A stretch of DNA of 64,000 nucleotides, from NCBI RefSeq assembly GCF_018406645.1, contig NZ_AP024546.1, forward strand, positions 1,674,001 to 1,738,000. The letters are read 5' to 3'. The notes below the pieces were generated by a model. It was given only the letters and a program-made list of their open reading frames with translations, was not told where the DNA came from and did no database searches. Positions 1,764 to 43,816 of this stretch are shown here, piece after piece. A program made the translations under genes and the position numbers. The first letter of the stretch is position 1; every line of letters begins with the position of its first letter. The stretch comes from Lysobacter helvus. Its GTDB lineage: Bacteria; Pseudomonadota; Gammaproteobacteria; Xanthomonadales; Xanthomonadaceae.

Positions 1764-3137
1764 TCAGCTGTCGTCGTCTTCGTTGGCGGCGCAGTCGCGC
1801 TCGCGTGCCAGGCGATTGCGGATGGTGCGCGCGGTGATGCCCAGCGCCGCCGCGGCGCGACGGCGGTTGTTGCCGAAGTGCTGCAGCGTCTTGCGCAGGA
1901 TGCGGCGCTCCATTTCCTCGAACGTGGTGCCGACCGCGAAAGTGATCGTGTCGGAGGATTCGCCCACCGCGCGCTGCGGCATCGGTTGGGGTGCCGGCAT
2001 GCGCACTTGTCCGTCCTCGGCGAGGATGTAGGCGCGCTGCACGGCGTTGCGCAACTCGCGCACGTTGCCGGGCCAGGGCGCGTCGCGGATCAGCGTGCGC
2101 GATTCGGGCGTGAACGCGAATTGCGTGTTGCCGCGCGCGTTGAGGTCGGCGAGGAAGGCATCGGCGAGCAGGCGTGCGTCGTCGCCGCGTTCGCGCAACG
2201 GCGCCACCGGGATCGCGAAGCCGCACAGGCGGTAATAGAGGTCTTCGCGCAGGCGGCCACTGGCGACGGCCTGGAGCGGATCGCGATTGGTGGCGGAGAC
2301 GATGCGCACTTCGACCGGGAGATCGACGTGCCCGCCGAGCCGGCGATAACAGCCGAAGTCGAGCACGCGCAGCAAGTGCGTCTGCAACGCCGGTGCCATC
2401 TCCGAGATTTCGTCGAGGAACAACGTGCCGTGCGCGGCCTGTTCGAGGAAACCGCCGTGGCGCGACACCGCGCCGGTGAAGCTGCCTTTCTCGTGGCCGA
2501 ACAACTGGCTCGCCAGAAGGTCGCCGGACACCGCGCCGCAATTCACCGCGACGAAGGGGCCCGTGCGTCCGCTCGCCGCATGGATGGCGCGCGCGATGAG
2601 TTCCTTGCCGCACCCGCTTTCGCCGTGCACGAGCACGGAGACATCGCTCGGCGCGACTTTCTCGATCATGCGGCGCGTGGCGACGAAGGCATCGGACGCG
2701 CCGACCATGTCGTGCCAGGCGCGCGCCGGGGCGGGCGGTTCCGCGCGACGGCGCGTGGCGCAGTCTTCGAAGAGTTCGCGCAGGCGGTCCGGCGCAATCG
2801 GCTTGACCAGGTAATCGACGACCGAATTGCGGAACGAATCCACCGCGGTCGCGACACTCGGGCTGCCGGTCACCACCACCGCATCGGTGCGCAGCATGTC
2901 GACGTCGCGCAGCAACGACAGGCCGCAGCCGTCGGGGAGGTCGAGGTCGACCAGCGCCATGTCGAAGTCGCGCTGCTTCACGCGGTTCACCGCTTGCGCG
3001 AGTTCGCCGGCCACCGTGATCTCGTAGCCCTGCAGGCGCGCGATCTCCGCCGCGGCGTGCACGAAGCCGACGTCGTCGTCGACGATCAGCAGCGACGGCG
3101 AGCGAAGCGGCGGCGCGGGGGTGAACTCGGAAGGCAT
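1764..3137 (-). CDS. Sigma-54-dependent response regulator (NtrC/AlgB type)
   Basis: 457 residues with the three NtrC-family domains in order. The receiver covers ~15-128 with acidic residues near 20-22 and phosphoacceptor Asp64 in ALVDLDLPDG. The AAA+ domain covers ~143-375: Walker A GESGCGKE 172-179, sigma-54 contact loop GSFTGA 218-223 (Ser replaces the usual first Ala) and Walker B LFLDE 239-243. A C-terminal Fis-type helix-turn-helix contains AAAALGITARTIRNRL. It should activate sigma-54 promoters after phosphorylation by a kinase not next to it. The open frame extends to 3341, but the extension overlaps the divergent lipoprotein gene and lacks family similarity, so I start at MPSEF. Targets cannot be told. 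Confidence 0.93.
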   Translation of the reverse strand: MPSEFTPAPPLRSPSLLIVDDDVGFVHAAAEIARLQGYEITVAGELAQAVNRVKQRDFDMALVDLDLPDGCGLSLLRDVDMLRTDAVVVTGSPSVATAVDSFRNSVVDYLVKPIAPDRLRELFEDCATRRRAEPPAPARAWHDMVGASDAFVATRRMIEKVAPSDVSVLVHGESGCGKELIARAIHAASGRTGPFVAVNCGAVSGDLLASQLFGHEKGSFTGAVSRHGGFLEQAAHGTLFLDEISEMAPALQTHLLRVLDFGCYRRLGGHVDLPVEVRIVSATNRDPLQAVASGRLREDLYYRLCGFAIPVAPLRERGDDARLLADAFLADLNARGNTQFAFTPESRTLIRDAPWPGNVRELRNAVQRAYILAEDGQVRMPAPQPMPQRAVGESSDTITFAVGTTFEEMERRILRKTLQHFGNNRRRAAAALGITARTIRNRLARERDCAANEDDDS

Positions 3138-3305
3138 TGGGGGATGGCTCTGCGGTGCGGCCACGCGGGATGTACTCCGCAGTAAGCAAAGCGGTAGTGA
3201 AGGCGGTTCATGTTTCCCGCCTGGGAAACCCATTCCGGCGATGGACGGTCGCGGCACGGCAATTGCATCGATAGGTCGGATGCATCCATCAAAGGAGGAT
3301 TTCGC

Positions 3306-3980
3306 ATGGACAGGAACCACACCGGTCTTCACATCACGCAAGCCGCGCTCGCCGTCGCCCTCGGGCTCGCACTAGGCGGCTGCAACCGCACCACGCCCGA
3401 AGACACGGGCGTCGCCGCCACCAGCACCGCGCTGCCGCCCGCCGTGGCGACACCGCCCCCGATGGAAACCACCACCGCGATGCCACCGGCCGTGACGACC
3501 ACGATGCCGCCGGCCACGACCGCGATCATGCCGCCGGCCACCACCACCGGCATGCCGCCCGCCGCGGGCGCGATGCTCACCGATGCGGACAAGGCCTTCC
3601 TGGCCGACGTCGTGCGTTCGAACGAAGAAGAGATCGCAACCACGGAGCTGGCGATGGCGCAGGGCGGCACGAAGGCGAAGGCGGTATCGCAGATGTTGAA
3701 TGCGGACCACATGGGCTTGCGTACCGAAATCGCCACGCTCGCGCCTGCGATCCCTGCGCCGCCGGGCAAGGCACCCGCGTCGTTGGCCGGCATGAAGGCC
3801 GGTGCGTTCGACGGACGCTTGTTCGCCACGTACATCGACCAGCACCAGAAGGCGATCGCCGCGTTCACGGCGGCGAGCAAGAACACCGCGCTCAGCGAAC
3901 CGGTGCGTTCGCTCGCCACGAACACGCTACCGAAACTGCAGCAGCACCTGCAGGCCGTGAAGGACGCGCAACGCACGTAA
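3306..3980 (+). CDS. DUF4142-family putative lipoprotein with Met-Pro-Pro repeats
   Basis: 224 residues, start fixed by AGGAGG 10 bases upstream. The N-terminus is a lipoprotein-type signal ending in a lipobox-like LGGC (Cys ~27). Residues ~45-95 are a low-complexity Thr/Pro/Met tract built from degenerate copies of MPPATT-like units, probably a flexible tether. Residues ~97-224 match the DUF4142 pattern (TDADKAFLADVVRSNEEEI, DHMGLRTEI, IDQHQKAIAAFT), a mostly helical, four-helix-bundle-like domain of exported proteins. Function is unknown. It is followed 47 bases later by the KGG stress protein on the same strand, so both may respond to stress. Confidence 0.85.
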   Translation: MDRNHTGLHITQAALAVALGLALGGCNRTTPEDTGVAATSTALPPAVATPPPMETTTAMPPAVTTTMPPATTAIMPPATTTGMPPAAGAMLTDADKAFLADVVRSNEEEIATTELAMAQGGTKAKAVSQMLNADHMGLRTEIATLAPAIPAPPGKAPASLAGMKAGAFDGRLFATYIDQHQKAIAAFTAASKNTALSEPVRSLATNTLPKLQQHLQAVKDAQRT

Positions 3981-37024: not shown

Positions 37025-37141
37025 CCCTCCCCGTCCCGGCGCGCCGGGCCTTTTCGTGTCGCGGTTTTGGCAGTCGGGTCCCCGGACTGCTAAGCTTCGC
37101 GCCCTTTCCCCAATCGACTCAACGACTTGCGAGGGTTGTCA

Positions 37142-37429
37142 ATGAACATCAAGCCGCTCTACGACCGCGTTGTCATCAAGCGCATGGAAGAAGAAAAAAT
37201 CTCCGCCGGCGGCATCGTCATCCCCGACTCCGCCACCGAAAAGCCGATCAAGGGCGAAGTCGTCGCCGTCGGCGACGGCAAGGTCCTCGACAACGGCTCC
37301 GTCCGCGCGCCGAAGGTCAAGGCCGGCGACAAGGTCCTGTTCGGCAAGTACAGCGGCACGGAAGTGAAGCTGGATGGCACCGAGTACCTGGTCGTGAAGG
37401 AAGACGACATCCTCGCCGTCCTCGGCTGA
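37142..37429 (+). CDS. groES: Co-chaperonin GroES
   Basis: 95 residues, standard length. The ring cap of the GroEL chaperonin. Conserved: [19 protein letters not shown], the mobile loop with [30 protein letters not shown], and [28 protein letters not shown] upstream of the ATG serves as a ribosome-binding site. groEL follows after 56 bases; transcription is from the heat-shock promoter 117 bases upstream. Confidence 0.99.
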
Positions 37430-37479
37430 GCGTCGTTTCCGCACAACAAGCAATCACAAGAATTCTTCTACTGAGGTAA

Positions 37480-39123
<1,644 letters not shown>

Positions 39124-39258: not shown

Positions 39259-40356
39259 TCAAGGCGCATGCGTAAAGTCGATGCGCCCATACAACCCGTG
39301 CTCCTCGTCGTTCGGCCCCGACGCAAAGAACAACGTATCCACCGGCTGGTCGCTCAGCCCGTTGCCGAACTGCATGCCCCACAACCCGTCGACGTAGATC
39401 GACGAACCGTCGCGATGCCGCAGGTTGCCCAGCAACGTGCCCGACGACGCCCCGTACGCATTGATCTTCCCGTCGCCGAAATTCCCGACGAGCAGCGCGT
39501 TGTGGAACGTCCCGAACGCCGCCGGCGCGAGCGCGAGGCCCCACGGCGCATTGAGCGCACCGCGCGTGGCGATGCGTCGCGCGAACTTCCCGTTCGGCTT
39601 GAACACGCTCACGAAGCCGCACCCGGCGCAGCGCACTTCGTCGGACATCGTCGCGTCCTGCTTGGCATAGGTGACGTAGATGTCGCCGTTGATCGCCTGG
39701 ATGCCGAACGGCGCATAGCCCTTCGGGATGCCCGGATCCTTGAACGCGCCGGTGGCCAGCGTCACCGGTTTGAAGTTGCTGTCGAACACATCCACGCGCG
39801 CGTGGAAGAAGTCGGTGGCGTAGATCAACTGCGTCAGGCCGTCGCCGCTCAACGCCAGGCCCTTGTAGTTCGTGCCGTCGGCCGAGTGGTTGATCATGCG
39901 GATCGCATGCGTGACATCCACCGCGGGCGACCAGGCGGCGATCACGCCCTGTTCGGTGGCGAACAGGAAGCGCGCGGGCCCGCTCAATGCCCCCTGCGTC
40001 ACCACGAACGCATTCGAACCGTTGAACACGATGCCGGTGGGATTGCCGCCGGTCGTCATCGTGGGCGAAGGAATCGCGACGACGAGCGACTGCACGACCC
40101 CGTCGCCGTCGTACAGCGTGGACACCATCCCGTCGGCGGCGGACACCCACACGAAGCCGAACGGATTGAACGCAACCCCCCACCCGTTCACCAGGTTGGG
40201 ATCGACGTGCGCGGCGGGGATGGTGCCGTCGGACACGAGGTTGCGGACCTTGTAGTAACCATCCACGGCCAGCGCGGAAGGCGCGGCCGCTGCAAGCACC
40301 AGGGCGAGGCCGACGGCGCATGCGGCGCGCCGGCGATGTCGGAAGAGCAGGGACAT
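39259..40356 (-). CDS. TIGR03118 family exported protein
   Basis: 365 residues. A signal peptide (~10-30, AACAVGLALVLAAAAPSALA) and a beta-propeller-like body with repeated Gly/Asn-rich strands: NLVNGWGVAFNPFGFVWVS, GGNPTGIVFNGSN, APWGLALAPAAFGTFHNALL, then VDGLWGMQFGNG. These phrases define the uncharacterised TIGR03118 family. Two Cys (CAGC) near 265. Function unknown. It is divergent from an ECF sigma gene, and the two have similar promoter-like pairs, so it may belong to that regulon. Confidence 0.88.
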   Translation of the reverse strand: MSLLFRHRRRAACAVGLALVLAAAAPSALAVDGYYKVRNLVSDGTIPAAHVDPNLVNGWGVAFNPFGFVWVSAADGMVSTLYDGDGVVQSLVVAIPSPTMTTGGNPTGIVFNGSNAFVVTQGALSGPARFLFATEQGVIAAWSPAVDVTHAIRMINHSADGTNYKGLALSGDGLTQLIYATDFFHARVDVFDSNFKPVTLATGAFKDPGIPKGYAPFGIQAINGDIYVTYAKQDATMSDEVRCAGCGFVSVFKPNGKFARRIATRGALNAPWGLALAPAAFGTFHNALLVGNFGDGKINAYGASSGTLLGNLRHRDGSSIYVDGLWGMQFGNGLSDQPVDTLFFASGPNDEEHGLYGRIDFTHAP

Positions 40357-40430: not shown

Positions 40431-40461
40431 ATGCATCCCGTCGCGGCGCCGCTTGGTTCAA
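40431..40461 (-). promoter_or_regulatory. Candidate ECF-type promoter for the TIGR03118 gene
   Basis: On the minus strand TTGAACC (40461-40455) is followed by 18 bases and ATGCAT (40436-40431). The same pair, with spacer 19, occurs on the plus strand upstream of the sigma gene. Shared elements on both sides of a sigma gene suggest autoregulation; this is inference. Confidence 0.4.
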
Positions 40462-40518: not shown

Positions 40519-40550
40519 TTGAACCGACCGACCCGCGCGCAGGCATGCAC
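40519..40550 (+). promoter_or_regulatory. Candidate autoregulated promoter of the ECF sigma gene
   Basis: TTGAACC (40519-40525), 19 bases, then ATGCAC (40545-40550). It resembles the minus-strand element at 40431-40461. The ribosome-binding site GGAGG starts at 40561, giving a very short leader, which is common for ECF operons. Confidence 0.4.
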
Positions 40551-40572
40551 TGCGCATCCCGGAGGTCTGCCC

Positions 40573-41157
40573 ATGCCGCGTCCCGTGCCCGAAGGCGAAA
40601 CCCACCGCATCGCGATGGACGATGTCGACCTGCTCGGCCTCGTGGCGATGGAGGACATGCACGCGTTCGAAGCGCTCTATCGCGCCTACGCGCCGCGCCT
40701 GCGCCGCTTCCTGCGCGGCGTGCTGCGCCAGCACGCGCTGGTGGACGAAGTGCTCGACGACACGATGCTGGTCGCATGGCGCAAGGCGCACACGTTCGAC
40801 GCGAGTTCGCAGGTGTCGACGTGGCTGTTCGCGATCGCGTACCGCCAGGCGATGAAGGCCGTGCGGCGCAGCGACATGCCGCTGCCCGATCCGCGCGACG
40901 AACCACGCGCGCCGAGCGACACCGAACCCGACGGCACGATGCAACGCCACCAGTTGCGCGCGCGCCTGGACGCGACGATCGCGCAACTCACGCCGGAACA
41001 TCGCGCGGTGATCGAGCTGACCTACTTCCACGGGCATGGCTGCAAGGAGATCGCCGAGATCGTCGGGTGCCCCGTGGCCACGGTGAAGACGCGCATGTTC
41101 TACGCGCGCCGCCGCATGAAGACCTTGCTCGGCGATGCCGGGGCGGAGGCACTGTGA
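40573..41157 (+). CDS. ECF-type RNA polymerase sigma factor
   Basis: 194 residues. Region sigma2 (~25-95: EDMHAFEALYRAYAPRLRRF, then VDEVLDDTMLVAWRKA) and region sigma4 (~135-190: LTPEHRAVIELTYFHGHGCK, then EIAEIVGCPVATVKTR). No sigma3, as in ECF factors. GGAGG 8 bases upstream of the ATG supports the start; GTG of the anti-sigma gene overlaps the stop (GTGA), so both are coupled. The linker between sigma2 and sigma4 is rich in Pro/Asp (PLPDPRDEPRAPSDTEPDG). Signal unknown. Confidence 0.93.
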   Translation: MPRPVPEGETHRIAMDDVDLLGLVAMEDMHAFEALYRAYAPRLRRFLRGVLRQHALVDEVLDDTMLVAWRKAHTFDASSQVSTWLFAIAYRQAMKAVRRSDMPLPDPRDEPRAPSDTEPDGTMQRHQLRARLDATIAQLTPEHRAVIELTYFHGHGCKEIAEIVGCPVATVKTRMFYARRRMKTLLGDAGAEAL

Positions 41158-41825
41158 ACGGTCGCGTGCTCTCCTTCGAAGGGCGCGGGCATCGCGCCAT
41201 CGCCTTGCTGCTGCCGTGGTACGCCAACGGCACGTTGTCGCAGGACGAACACCTGCGCGTGCAAGCGCACCTCGCCGAATGCGCCGCATGCCGGCAGGAC
41301 GTGGAGGCGATGCGCACGCTGATCGACGACGGTCCGGCGCACGTCGAGGCCCCCGATGTCGATCGCGACTGGCAGCGCCTGCGCGGTCGCCTGCATGCCA
41401 CGCAACGCGCGCCGGTCTTGCGCGCTCGCTGGCCGCGCCTGCGCACGGCCTGGCGCGGGACCTTGCCGTGGACGCGCATCGCGTTGGGCGCGCAGGCGGC
41501 GATGCTAGTCCTGCTGGGCGTGTTCGCGTTCCGGCGGGAAACCGCGCCGGACGCGCCGTTCGCCTATCGCACGCTGTCCGCGCCCACGGTGGCGGCGAAC
41601 AAGGCCGACCGCGTGCTGGTCGTCTTCGATTCGCGCCTGACGGAAGCGCAGTTGCGCGCATTGCTGGCGCAGGTGCACGGCCGCATCGTCGACGGCCCGA
41701 ACGAAGCCGGCGCTTTCCTCATCGCGACCGACCCCGGCCAGTCGCAGAGCGTGCGTGATGCGTTGCGTGCTTCGCCCGGCGTGGAAATCGCCGAGCTGCT
41801 GGCGCCGGCGGAGACACGCGAGTGA
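41154..41825 (+). CDS. Zinc-binding anti-sigma factor with propeptide-like periplasmic domain
   Basis: 223 residues. N-terminal ZAS-type motif HLAECAAC (His39, Cys43, Cys46) for sigma binding, one membrane helix (~107-126, ALGAQAAMLVLLGVFAF) and a periplasmic C-terminal domain (~150-220): VLVVFDSRLTEAQLRALLA, then AGAFLIATDPGQSQ and a VEIAEL ending. The alternating pattern resembles inhibitor I9/subtilase-propeptide folds. The following gene encodes a subtilase, so the domain may bind it. Overlaps: GTGA with sigma, and stop TGA sharing bases with the subtilase start. Confidence 0.8.
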   Translation: MNGRVLSFEGRGHRAIALLLPWYANGTLSQDEHLRVQAHLAECAACRQDVEAMRTLIDDGPAHVEAPDVDRDWQRLRGRLHATQRAPVLRARWPRLRTAWRGTLPWTRIALGAQAAMLVLLGVFAFRRETAPDAPFAYRTLSAPTVAANKADRVLVVFDSRLTEAQLRALLAQVHGRIVDGPNEAGAFLIATDPGQSQSVRDALRASPGVEIAELLAPAETRE

Positions 41826-43087
41826 TGCGCGCGCTTGCCGCCTTGCTGCTCGGTCTCGCGTTCGCGCTGTGCAGCGTCGCGCGTGCGGGTCCACCCGACG
41901 TGGAAGCGCGGCAACTCCTCGTGATGCTGCGCGCGCCCGCCGTCCACGATCGTCCGGACACCGCGTACGCAGGCGATTACCGGAACGCGCCGGGCCACGC
42001 CGCGCGCGCCCGCATCGCGCAACGCCTCGCCACCGCGCATGGCCTCACGATGCGTACCGACTGGCCGATGCCGGCGCTCGGTCTGGATTGCTTCGTGCTC
42101 GAAGCGCCGGATGCCGCGTCCGTGGCCGCGGCCGTCGCGGCACTCGCGCAGGACCCGCGGGTGGAATCGGTGCAGGCGATGCAACGCTTCGAAGTGCTGG
42201 GTGCGAAGGCGCCCGGTGATCCACTCTCGCCCGCGCAACCGGTGATCGCCCAATGGCGCCTGCAGGAACTGCATGCGTTCACGACGGGCAAGGGCGTGTC
42301 GGTTGCCGTGATCGATACGGGCGTCGCTTCGACGCATCCCGATCTGAAGGGCCAGGTCGTCGTGTCCCGGGATTTCATCAACGACAAGCCCACGAACACC
42401 ATCGCGGAAGCGCACGGCACCGAAGTCGCCGGCCTCATCGCCGCCCGCGCCGACAATCGCCTCGGCATCGCAGGCGTGGCACCCGGCGCGCGCCTGTATG
42501 CGTTGCGCGCCTGTCGCGAAGACGGACCGCGGGGCGTGGCGCACTGCAGCAGCTTCACGCTCGCCAAGGCGTTGCAGTTCTCGATCGAGCAGCGCGTGCG
42601 CGTCCTCAACCTCAGCCTGTCGGGGCCGCCCGACGTGTTGCTCGCGCGCCTGATCGACGTGGCGCTGCGCAACGGCGCCAACGTGGTCGCGGCGGTGGAT
42701 GCGCGCGCGGCCGACGGCGGGTTTCCTGCTTCCCATCGGGATGTGCTGGCGGTCGCTGGCGATGCGCGACAGGAGGTCGCCTTCGCCGCCGTCGTGGCCC
42801 CGGCCACCGCGCTGCCGACGACGACGGCGGACGGCGGCTGGGGCCTCGTCGACGGCGCATCGTTCGCCGCGGCCCAGGTCAGCGGCCTGGTGGCGCTGCT
42901 GCGCCAGCGTGCGCCCCGCGCCGGCAGCGCCTTCCTGCGTGACGCGGTCGCACCGCCGGCTGCGCTAGGCTCCGGGCCGGCGCGTCCCCACCCGGTCGAC
43001 GCCTGTGCCGCCGTCGCGCGCGCGCAACGCGCCTGCGCCTGCGGTTGCGGGTCCCGTGCGATCGCGGAGGAGTCGTCGCGCCACTGA
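41825..43087 (+). CDS. Exported S8 subtilase-like protein
   Basis: 420 residues. A signal peptide (~1-22), a propeptide-like region (~28-122 with LLVMLRAP and PRVESVQAMQRFEVL), and an S8 domain (~135-365) whose triad is visible: Asp164 (VIDTG), His197 (AHGTEVAG) and Ser346 (DGASFAAAQVSG; the usual GTS is GAS). The oxyanion-hole Asn, normally in an AAAGN segment, seems absent: the segment reads VVAAVDARAADGG (~287-299). Activity may therefore be reduced or altered. C-terminus is Cys-rich (ACACGCGSR). The start overlaps the anti-sigma stop; ATG at 41825 or GTG at 41822. Confidence 0.88.
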   Translation: MRALAALLLGLAFALCSVARAGPPDVEARQLLVMLRAPAVHDRPDTAYAGDYRNAPGHAARARIAQRLATAHGLTMRTDWPMPALGLDCFVLEAPDAASVAAAVAALAQDPRVESVQAMQRFEVLGAKAPGDPLSPAQPVIAQWRLQELHAFTTGKGVSVAVIDTGVASTHPDLKGQVVVSRDFINDKPTNTIAEAHGTEVAGLIAARADNRLGIAGVAPGARLYALRACREDGPRGVAHCSSFTLAKALQFSIEQRVRVLNLSLSGPPDVLLARLIDVALRNGANVVAAVDARAADGGFPASHRDVLAVAGDARQEVAFAAVVAPATALPTTTADGGWGLVDGASFAAAQVSGLVALLRQRAPRAGSAFLRDAVAPPAALGSGPARPHPVDACAAVARAQRACACGCGSRAIAEESSRH

Positions 43088-43096
43088 GAGCGCGCG

Positions 43097-43816
43097 GTGC
43101 GACATGGCACCACTGCAACTCCACGCCCGGTTGGCGCGCGCTGCGCTGCGCTGGGGATCTGCGCGTGCCTGTTCGTGTTCGTCGCGCCTGCCTGGGCGCA
43201 GGTGTCGGGCAGCGTCGGCGTGGTGTCGGACTATCGCTATCGCGGGTACTCGCTCAGCGACGACAGGCCGGCGGTGCAGGGCGACATCGAGTGGAACGCG
43301 AACGGCGGCTTCTACGCAGGCCTGTTCGCGTCCACCGTGCGCCCGGCATACCAGTCCAGCGGCGCGTTGTGGATCCCGTATGCAGGCTTCGCGAAGCGTG
43401 ACGGGCACGGGCGCAGCTGGGATGTCGGCATCCGCTGGTCGCATTTCGATTCGGCGTCGGCGTACGACTATCCGGAAGTGCACGTGGGCGTGGCGTTCCG
43501 CCGCGTGACGATCCGCGCGCACTACGCGCAGGACTACTTCGGCGATGCACCGGGCGTGTACGTCGAAGTCGATGGCGGCGTGCCGTTCGCCGAACGCTGG
43601 CAGTTGCTGCTGCACGCGGGCGCGGCGCACGACGTGGAGACCGGTGGCGCAGGCACGCGTTTCGACGTGCGCGCCGGTGTGTCGCTGGCCACGCGCGTGT
43701 GCGATGTCTCGCTGTCCTGGCAGGGCACGCGCGGGGAAACCGAGTATCCGTACTACCCGCCGTGGGATCCCTACGATCGCGGCGGCTGGGTGCTGGGCTG
43801 CGTGCACCGCTGGTGA
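43097..43816 (+). CDS. TorF family putative porin
   Basis: 239 residues. Signal peptide ending VAPAWA-Q (~34), then a beta-barrel pattern: VGVVSDYRYRGYSLSDDRPA, GDIEWNANGGFYAGLFAS, GVYVEVDGGVPFAERWQLLL, ending VLGCVHRW. The opening SVGVVSDYRYRGYSLSDDRP is the signature of the TorF family (TIGR02001) outer-membrane proteins. It starts with GTG at 43097, 9 bases after the S8 gene; the start is uncertain. It may be in the same operon as the sigma module, suggesting that the module controls envelope permeability. Confidence 0.8.
   Translation: MRHGTTATPRPVGARCAALGICACLFVFVAPAWAQVSGSVGVVSDYRYRGYSLSDDRPAVQGDIEWNANGGFYAGLFASTVRPAYQSSGALWIPYAGFAKRDGHGRSWDVGIRWSHFDSASAYDYPEVHVGVAFRRVTIRAHYAQDYFGDAPGVYVEVDGGVPFAERWQLLLHAGAAHDVETGGAGTRFDVRAGVSLATRVCDVSLSWQGTRGETEYPYYPPWDPYDRGGWVLGCVHRW

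Follow-up and report, generated by a model that had tools for sequence, protein, structure and literature searches.

A subtilase prodomain homologue on an ECF anti-sigma factor marks a widespread candidate signalling operon in Proteobacteria

Introduction

In the sigma E envelope stress system (RpoE-RseA-RseB), an ECF sigma factor and a single-pass anti-sigma factor work with a periplasmic partner encoded in the same operon, and the locus analysed here shares this arrangement. Prodomains of subtilases have established roles as inhibitors and in assisting folding; at this locus, such a domain seems to have been co-opted as the sensor in a sigma switch. The prodomain fold can also act in trans against a subtilase, as in the stand-alone I9 subtilisin propeptide-like inhibitors (POIA1; complex 1v5i), which the anti-sigma tail described below resembles. 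Proprotein convertase 2, which carries Asp in place of the oxyanion Asn and keeps its catalytic triad, resembles the S8 protein of this locus in both respects. In the SigV-RsiV system the anti-sigma factor RsiV is a receptor for lysozyme (PMC5014341); there the outer domain of an anti-sigma factor binds an enzyme to control sigma, and the tail described here is a candidate for binding of the same kind. Subtilase genes also lie near the sigma factors of group ECF54, which has subtilase and CHAT neighbours and for which a mechanism lacking an anti-sigma factor has been proposed (PMC8999054). Our literature search found no paper describing the present system, and an S8 gene may have been noticed earlier in the context of an ECF group.

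Results

Organisation of the operon

The window, meaning the whole stretch of 64,000 nucleotides of Lysobacter helvus DNA that was analysed, contains the locus just downstream of groES-groEL (37127-39123). Positions below are those of the window.

40455-40461, - strand: TTGAACC box facing the divergent TIGR03118 gene (divergent sites with a -10 element in relatives)
40519-40546, + strand: putative autoregulatory promoter of ECF type, TTGAACC-N16-GGCAT (dyad conserved in relatives)
40573-41157, + strand: ECF sigma factor (Pfam Sigma70_r2, 46 bits; r4_2, 50 bits; relatives have orthologues at this position)
41154-41825, + strand: anti-sigma factor with one predicted membrane helix (zf-HC2, 39.3 bits)
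41196-41294, + strand: zinc-binding, sigma-binding domain, anti-sigma residues 15-47 (PF13490)
41478-41531, + strand: predicted membrane helix, anti-sigma residues 109-126 (read from the sequence)
41607-41822, + strand: predicted periplasmic tail, anti-sigma residues 152-223, subtilase prodomain homologue (PF22148, hhalign, AF2, Foldseek)
41825-43087, + strand: S8 (subtilase) protein (PF00082, 94 bits; PDB subtilisins to 2.7e-25)
41909-42199, + strand: the S8 protein's own prodomain, residues 29-125 (homology to the tail; conservation)
42287-42952, + strand: S8 catalytic domain (D164, H197 and S346 conserved; alignment of 101 relatives)
43097-43816, + strand: TorF/Gcw_chp outer-membrane porin-like gene (PF09694, 83.6 bits; TIGR02001, 89 bits; conserved beside S8)

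The anti-sigma gene, which starts with GTG, overlaps the sigma gene at GTGA, the S8 gene overlaps the anti-sigma gene at TGATG, and the porin gene starts 9 bases after the S8 gene. Gene coordinates and Pfam matches confirm the three coupled genes of a preliminary description of this DNA (ECF sigma, ZAS anti-sigma and S8). The extent given there, 40519-43087, is correct for these three, but the operon is larger: the conserved unit consists of four genes, encoding the ECF sigma factor, the zf-HC2 anti-sigma factor, the exported S8 protein and the TorF/Gcw_chp porin, and extends to 43816. The anti-sigma factor has the ZAS motif HxxxCxxC, with H39, C43 and C46 invariant in a 16-member alignment. 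This domain and the gene order suggest that it binds and inhibits the cognate sigma factor. Export of the S8 protein is predicted from an N-terminal signal sequence read directly.

Linkage of the anti-sigma tail and S8

We surveyed 297 genomes of the family in separate searches with the anti-sigma factor, found in 47, and with the S8 protein, found independently in 43. All 43 S8-bearing genomes also encode the anti-sigma factor, with the two genes adjacent and in the same order in 42 and split over contigs in the last one (Fisher p 1e-47 for co-occurrence, a value that ignores the relatedness of the genomes). Among the best 80 S8 relatives in GTDB genomes, 76 have a tail-bearing anti-sigma gene upstream; of the exceptions, L116, L121 and L122 lack one, and L060 is ended by its contig. 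The conserved pair is present in Alpha-, Beta- and Gammaproteobacteria and in single loci labelled Nitrospira and Verrucomicrobia. Whether sigma factor, tail and S8 occur together in other Xanthomonadaceae had been raised in the preliminary description; the trio is conserved there, and the pairing reaches far beyond the family. In L116 and L121 the TorF and S8 genes are adjacent without a sigma or anti-sigma gene, and S8 looks like a lipoprotein.

Because the 80 loci were chosen by their S8 gene, the converse search was run across the class with an anti-sigma profile. It placed S8 next door in 16 of 21 evaluable tail-bearing loci and in none of 7 tail-less loci. The linkage between tail and S8 is strong yet not absolute, since five tail-bearing loci (L189, L190, L191, L192 and L193) have no neighbouring S8 gene; in L191 a caspase-like gene (2611-3975) follows the anti-sigma gene in place of S8. 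Within the family, two apparent cases without S8 (L051, after 7223, and L195:3900-5261) encode a different anti-sigma factor with a prodomain tail, followed by a divergent S8-like protein, which in L051 keeps both the oxyanion Asn and the triad. In L049, the anti-sigma gene is followed by a prodomain-like start only, and then a stop.

Some loci have exchanged parts of the system. Sphingomonad-type loci (among them L083, L085, L090, L094, L104, L107, L111 and L113) carry a different anti-sigma-like domain in place of the zinc domain, and their sigma factor is divergent, yet they retain the tail, S8 and usually the porin. We compared distances for eight such swapped loci that have all parts (L097 included, L111 not). 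Sigma and the sigma-binding domain lie at mean distances of 0.84 and 0.93 from the other loci (0.52 and 0.74 among those others), the tail and the S8 catalytic domain at 0.73 and 0.49 (0.64 and 0.45). The distances of tail and S8 are near normal where sigma and its binding domain have been replaced: the tail travels with S8. Mirror-tree partial correlations over all loci did not separate the couplings (tail-S8 0.39, tail-sigma 0.46).

The anti-sigma tail is a subtilase prodomain homologue

The preliminary description had likened the tail to a subtilase propeptide of the I9 type. The likeness to a propeptide stands; the family is the fervidolysin type (PF22148, Fervidolysin_NPro-like), and Inhibitor_I9 itself (PF05922) is absent among the Pfam matches listed for the tail. 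Residues 152-214 match PF22148 with 24.9 bits, or 27.9 bits when searched alone, above the Pfam cut-off of 21, and this is the one match to PF22148 in the genome. At E <=0.1, 64 of 93 family tails match PF22148 and 4 match the next family. Aligned by hhalign, the tail profile matches the S8 protein's own prodomain with 94% probability (E 1.1e-7, score 43.4), compared with scores of at most 14.7 for three other S8 segments and 14.5 for 30 column-shuffled profiles, all at a probability of about 1% or less.

An AF2 model of the tail (pLDDT 78.5, pTM 0.64) has the prodomain topology, beta-alpha-beta-beta-alpha-beta; the alignment behind it left out two rows from plasmid records and some longer divergent tails. 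Foldseek matched this model to the subtilisin prosegments 1spb, 1scj, 3cnq and 3whi at about 2.5 A, with no match reaching E 0.001; the fold is a common, ferredoxin-like one. A sequence search of the tail profile against the PDB found no chain.

The end of the tail is also conserved. Of 95 tails, 90 keep a Glu or Gln at the position equivalent to Glu69 of BPN', and in 93 the C-terminus follows 5-10 residues past this position, most often after 8 (44 tails). In the prodomain of subtilisin BPN', 8 residues separate Glu69 from the scissile bond. Where the S8 protein's own prodomain has its aromatic residue, the tails mostly have Gly, Ala or Pro. Because of the spacing of the C-terminal end and the missing aromatic, we read the tail as built like a cleaved prodomain of weaker binding. 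Both the fold and the point at which the chain ends are as expected for a prodomain, which falls short of proving binding.

The S8 protein

A propeptide region at about residues 28-122 of the S8 protein had also been proposed, and residues 29-125 are indeed homologous to the tail (hhalign), with a weak match of the N-terminal region to PF22148 (14.1 bits). This prodomain has Gln or Glu at the Glu69-equivalent position in 100 of 101 relatives and, five positions on, an aromatic (residue 122) in all 101, which would be P4 in the BPN' register. The catalytic triad is kept throughout (Asp 101/101, His 101/101 and Ser in 100/100 readable sequences; D164, H197 and S346). The oxyanion Asn of AAxGN is missing in 101/101 relatives, which mostly have a DP or PP loop instead (42686-42721). 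Residues 240-250 correspond by homology to the first prodomain-binding helix of subtilisin, and this stretch ranks in the top four of the catalytic domain for conservation. Cysteines 89, 230 and 241 (42089-42091, 42512-42514 and 42545-42547) are invariant in the 101 relatives, and one of the three falls within the prodomain. We considered and rejected a type VII secretion mycosin as the identity of the protein (TIGR03921, 131 bits against a cut-off of 278.75).

Promoter and putative regulon

The region of the preliminary description begins at 40519 with the first base of a TTGAACC -35 box, and GGCAT lies 16 bases on. Relatives from three proteobacterial classes carry this dyad upstream of sigma as well, with a spacing of about 15 nt between TTGAACC and GGYAT. 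It is the best dyad and was present in 21 of 93 upstream regions, whereas in the shuffles no dyad exceeded 5. Across the 3.27 Mb genome there are 3 exact matches to TTGAACC-N16-GGCAT and 0 to its reversed control. Given that the dyad is conserved ahead of sigma, the sigma factor is probably autoregulated and would control its own operon.

The divergent TTGAACC box, whose count within the window alone is without significance, faces a gene for a TIGR03118 (PEPCTERM_chp_1) exported protein (39259-40356, - strand) and has counterparts in L036 and L040. In relatives the same promoter type, divergent or downstream, precedes genes whose products are exported or surface-sorted. These include TIGR03118 genes (the one in the window and L066, with L036 and L040 by sequence), intramembrane protease genes of the MrtJ type (L061, L073 and L084), genes for PEPxxWA-CTERM proteins (L108:1957-2598 and L078:1116-1805), and genes for plastocyanin-like and calcium-repeat proteins. 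In Oxalobacteraceae-type loci (L061, L073, L084, L117 and L092) the divergent promoter precedes MrtJ genes or reading frames that end in JDVT-CTERM; MrtJ together with its JDVT-CTERM target has been described as a sorting pair (PMC11980579). These neighbouring promoters are circumstantial evidence that would fit a role around exported proteins. Elsewhere in the same genome as the window, an exact TTGAACC/GGCAT lies upstream of a gene for a Mep72-related metzincin protease that scores below the Mep72 cut-off (L168:963-3431, - strand).

Discussion

Proposed mechanism

Most likely, the extracytoplasmic sensor of this system is a second prodomain, paralogous to that of S8, which is tethered to the membrane, works in trans and docks on mature S8, with the occupancy of S8 as the signal. 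In the cytoplasm, the anti-sigma factor would hold sigma through its zinc domain. The S8 protein would be exported, fold with its own prodomain and mature, and its vacated prodomain-binding face and active-site cleft would then be free to receive the anti-sigma tail. The C-terminus of the tail would sit in the cleft in the manner of a cleaved prodomain. Binding of the tail is expected to be weaker and displaceable, because the aromatic that is constant in the S8 protein's own prodomain is missing from it. In the homeostatic direction, which we favour, free mature S8 on the tail would protect the anti-sigma factor and keep sigma off. When S8 is scarce, or when exported clients compete for and occupy it, the bare tail would lead to inactivation of the anti-sigma factor, and the freed sigma would raise expression of its own operon and of nearby genes for exported, surface-sorted proteins. 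That docking of the tail on S8 controls sigma in this direction seems to us an evenly balanced proposition. The broader claim, that this is a widespread class of signalling that lets a bacterium monitor whether an exported subtilase is mature or occupied, by means of a tethered trans-prodomain on an anti-sigma factor, and so control genes for exported and surface-sorted proteins, we hold a little more tentatively, at just short of an even chance.

We also folded a single read-through fusion (stop codon of the same-genus relative L036), which gave a pTM of 0.71 and tail blocks mostly at about 90-95 pLDDT. The Foldseek alignment of this model with pro-subtilisin spans 400 columns; because a tail in the docking site would have given a longer alignment, this length implies that the S8 protein's own prodomain, not the tail, occupies that site in the model. 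The preliminary description had proposed that the tail binds the neighbouring subtilase as a pseudo-substrate and that its cleavage or displacement would release sigma. Of the points it named as decisive, the fold of the tail and its co-occurrence with S8 favour that proposal, and the fused model offers no tail-S8 interface. A larger fusion alignment, in which tails were aligned onto the S8 prodomain, was set aside.

Alternative readings

The S8 protein could instead be a site-1 protease that the tail inhibits or recruits: upon a signal it would cut the anti-sigma factor, intramembrane proteolysis would finish the job and sigma would be released, which implies positive feedback, S8 being in the operon. 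The fully kept triad, which indicates that catalysis is under selection, and a prodomain-type ligand displayed at the membrane both speak for this. Against it, the canonical oxyanion Asn is missing in every relative, and its loss in subtilisin greatly slows catalysis; the C-terminal residues of the tail are small or Pro-rich, and the chain stops there; and ECF operons more often encode partners that act as negative modulators, such as RseB. On balance we regard this protease role as rather unlikely. The same loss of the oxyanion Asn across the subfamily might indicate that S8 is an essentially non-proteolytic receptor whose prodomain-binding face is only a docking site. Pseudoproteases of the CspC kind, however, lose triad residues, and the full conservation of the triad over three proteobacterial classes disfavours such a role, as does the divergent but equivalent L051 system, with both triad and Asn intact; we consider a pseudoprotease very improbable.

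It is also conceivable that the tail has turned from a prodomain into a periplasmic sensor for a signal other than S8, with S8 merely a co-regulated target. Some tail-bearing anti-sigma factors do occur away from an S8 gene, the ferredoxin-like fold is common, and the tail varies with sigma about as much as with S8. This sits poorly with the near-absolute linkage in the S8-bearing genomes of the family and the absence of S8 beside any of the 7 tail-less anti-sigma factors, with the retention of the tail alongside S8 where the sigma-binding domain is replaced, and with a tail C-terminus conserved at prodomain length. We judge another ligand decidedly unlikely, and return to docking of the tail on mature S8 as the preferred reading. 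A copy of a prodomain displayed outside the cell suggests that the cell senses the state of the protease directly.

Comparison with known systems

This is apparently a widespread and so far undescribed signalling operon, common to many proteobacterial species, and it offers a concrete input for an uncharacterised ECF system. It is also relevant to an unusual subtilase family that has the full triad without the canonical oxyanion Asn. We regard the system as a new variant of ECF/anti-sigma signalling with a plausible mechanism. The RseA model matches the anti-sigma factor with 14.2 bits against a cut-off of 165, and no RseB model is among the matches listed for the operon proteins; in contrast to RpoE-RseA-RseB, the periplasmic part of the anti-sigma factor is a subtilase prodomain and the partner is an S8 protein. 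The sequence relation of S8 to proprotein convertase 2 is remote, and the Asn is replaced here mostly within a DP or PP loop. Whereas ECF54 is proposed to dispense with an anti-sigma factor, one is present here. Inhibitors of the POIA1 type are free, whereas a membrane helix connects this tail to a sigma-binding domain. Finally, the lysozyme bound by RsiV comes from outside, whereas the candidate enzyme here is the product of the neighbouring gene, and the sensor domain is of the same kind as that enzyme's own prodomain.
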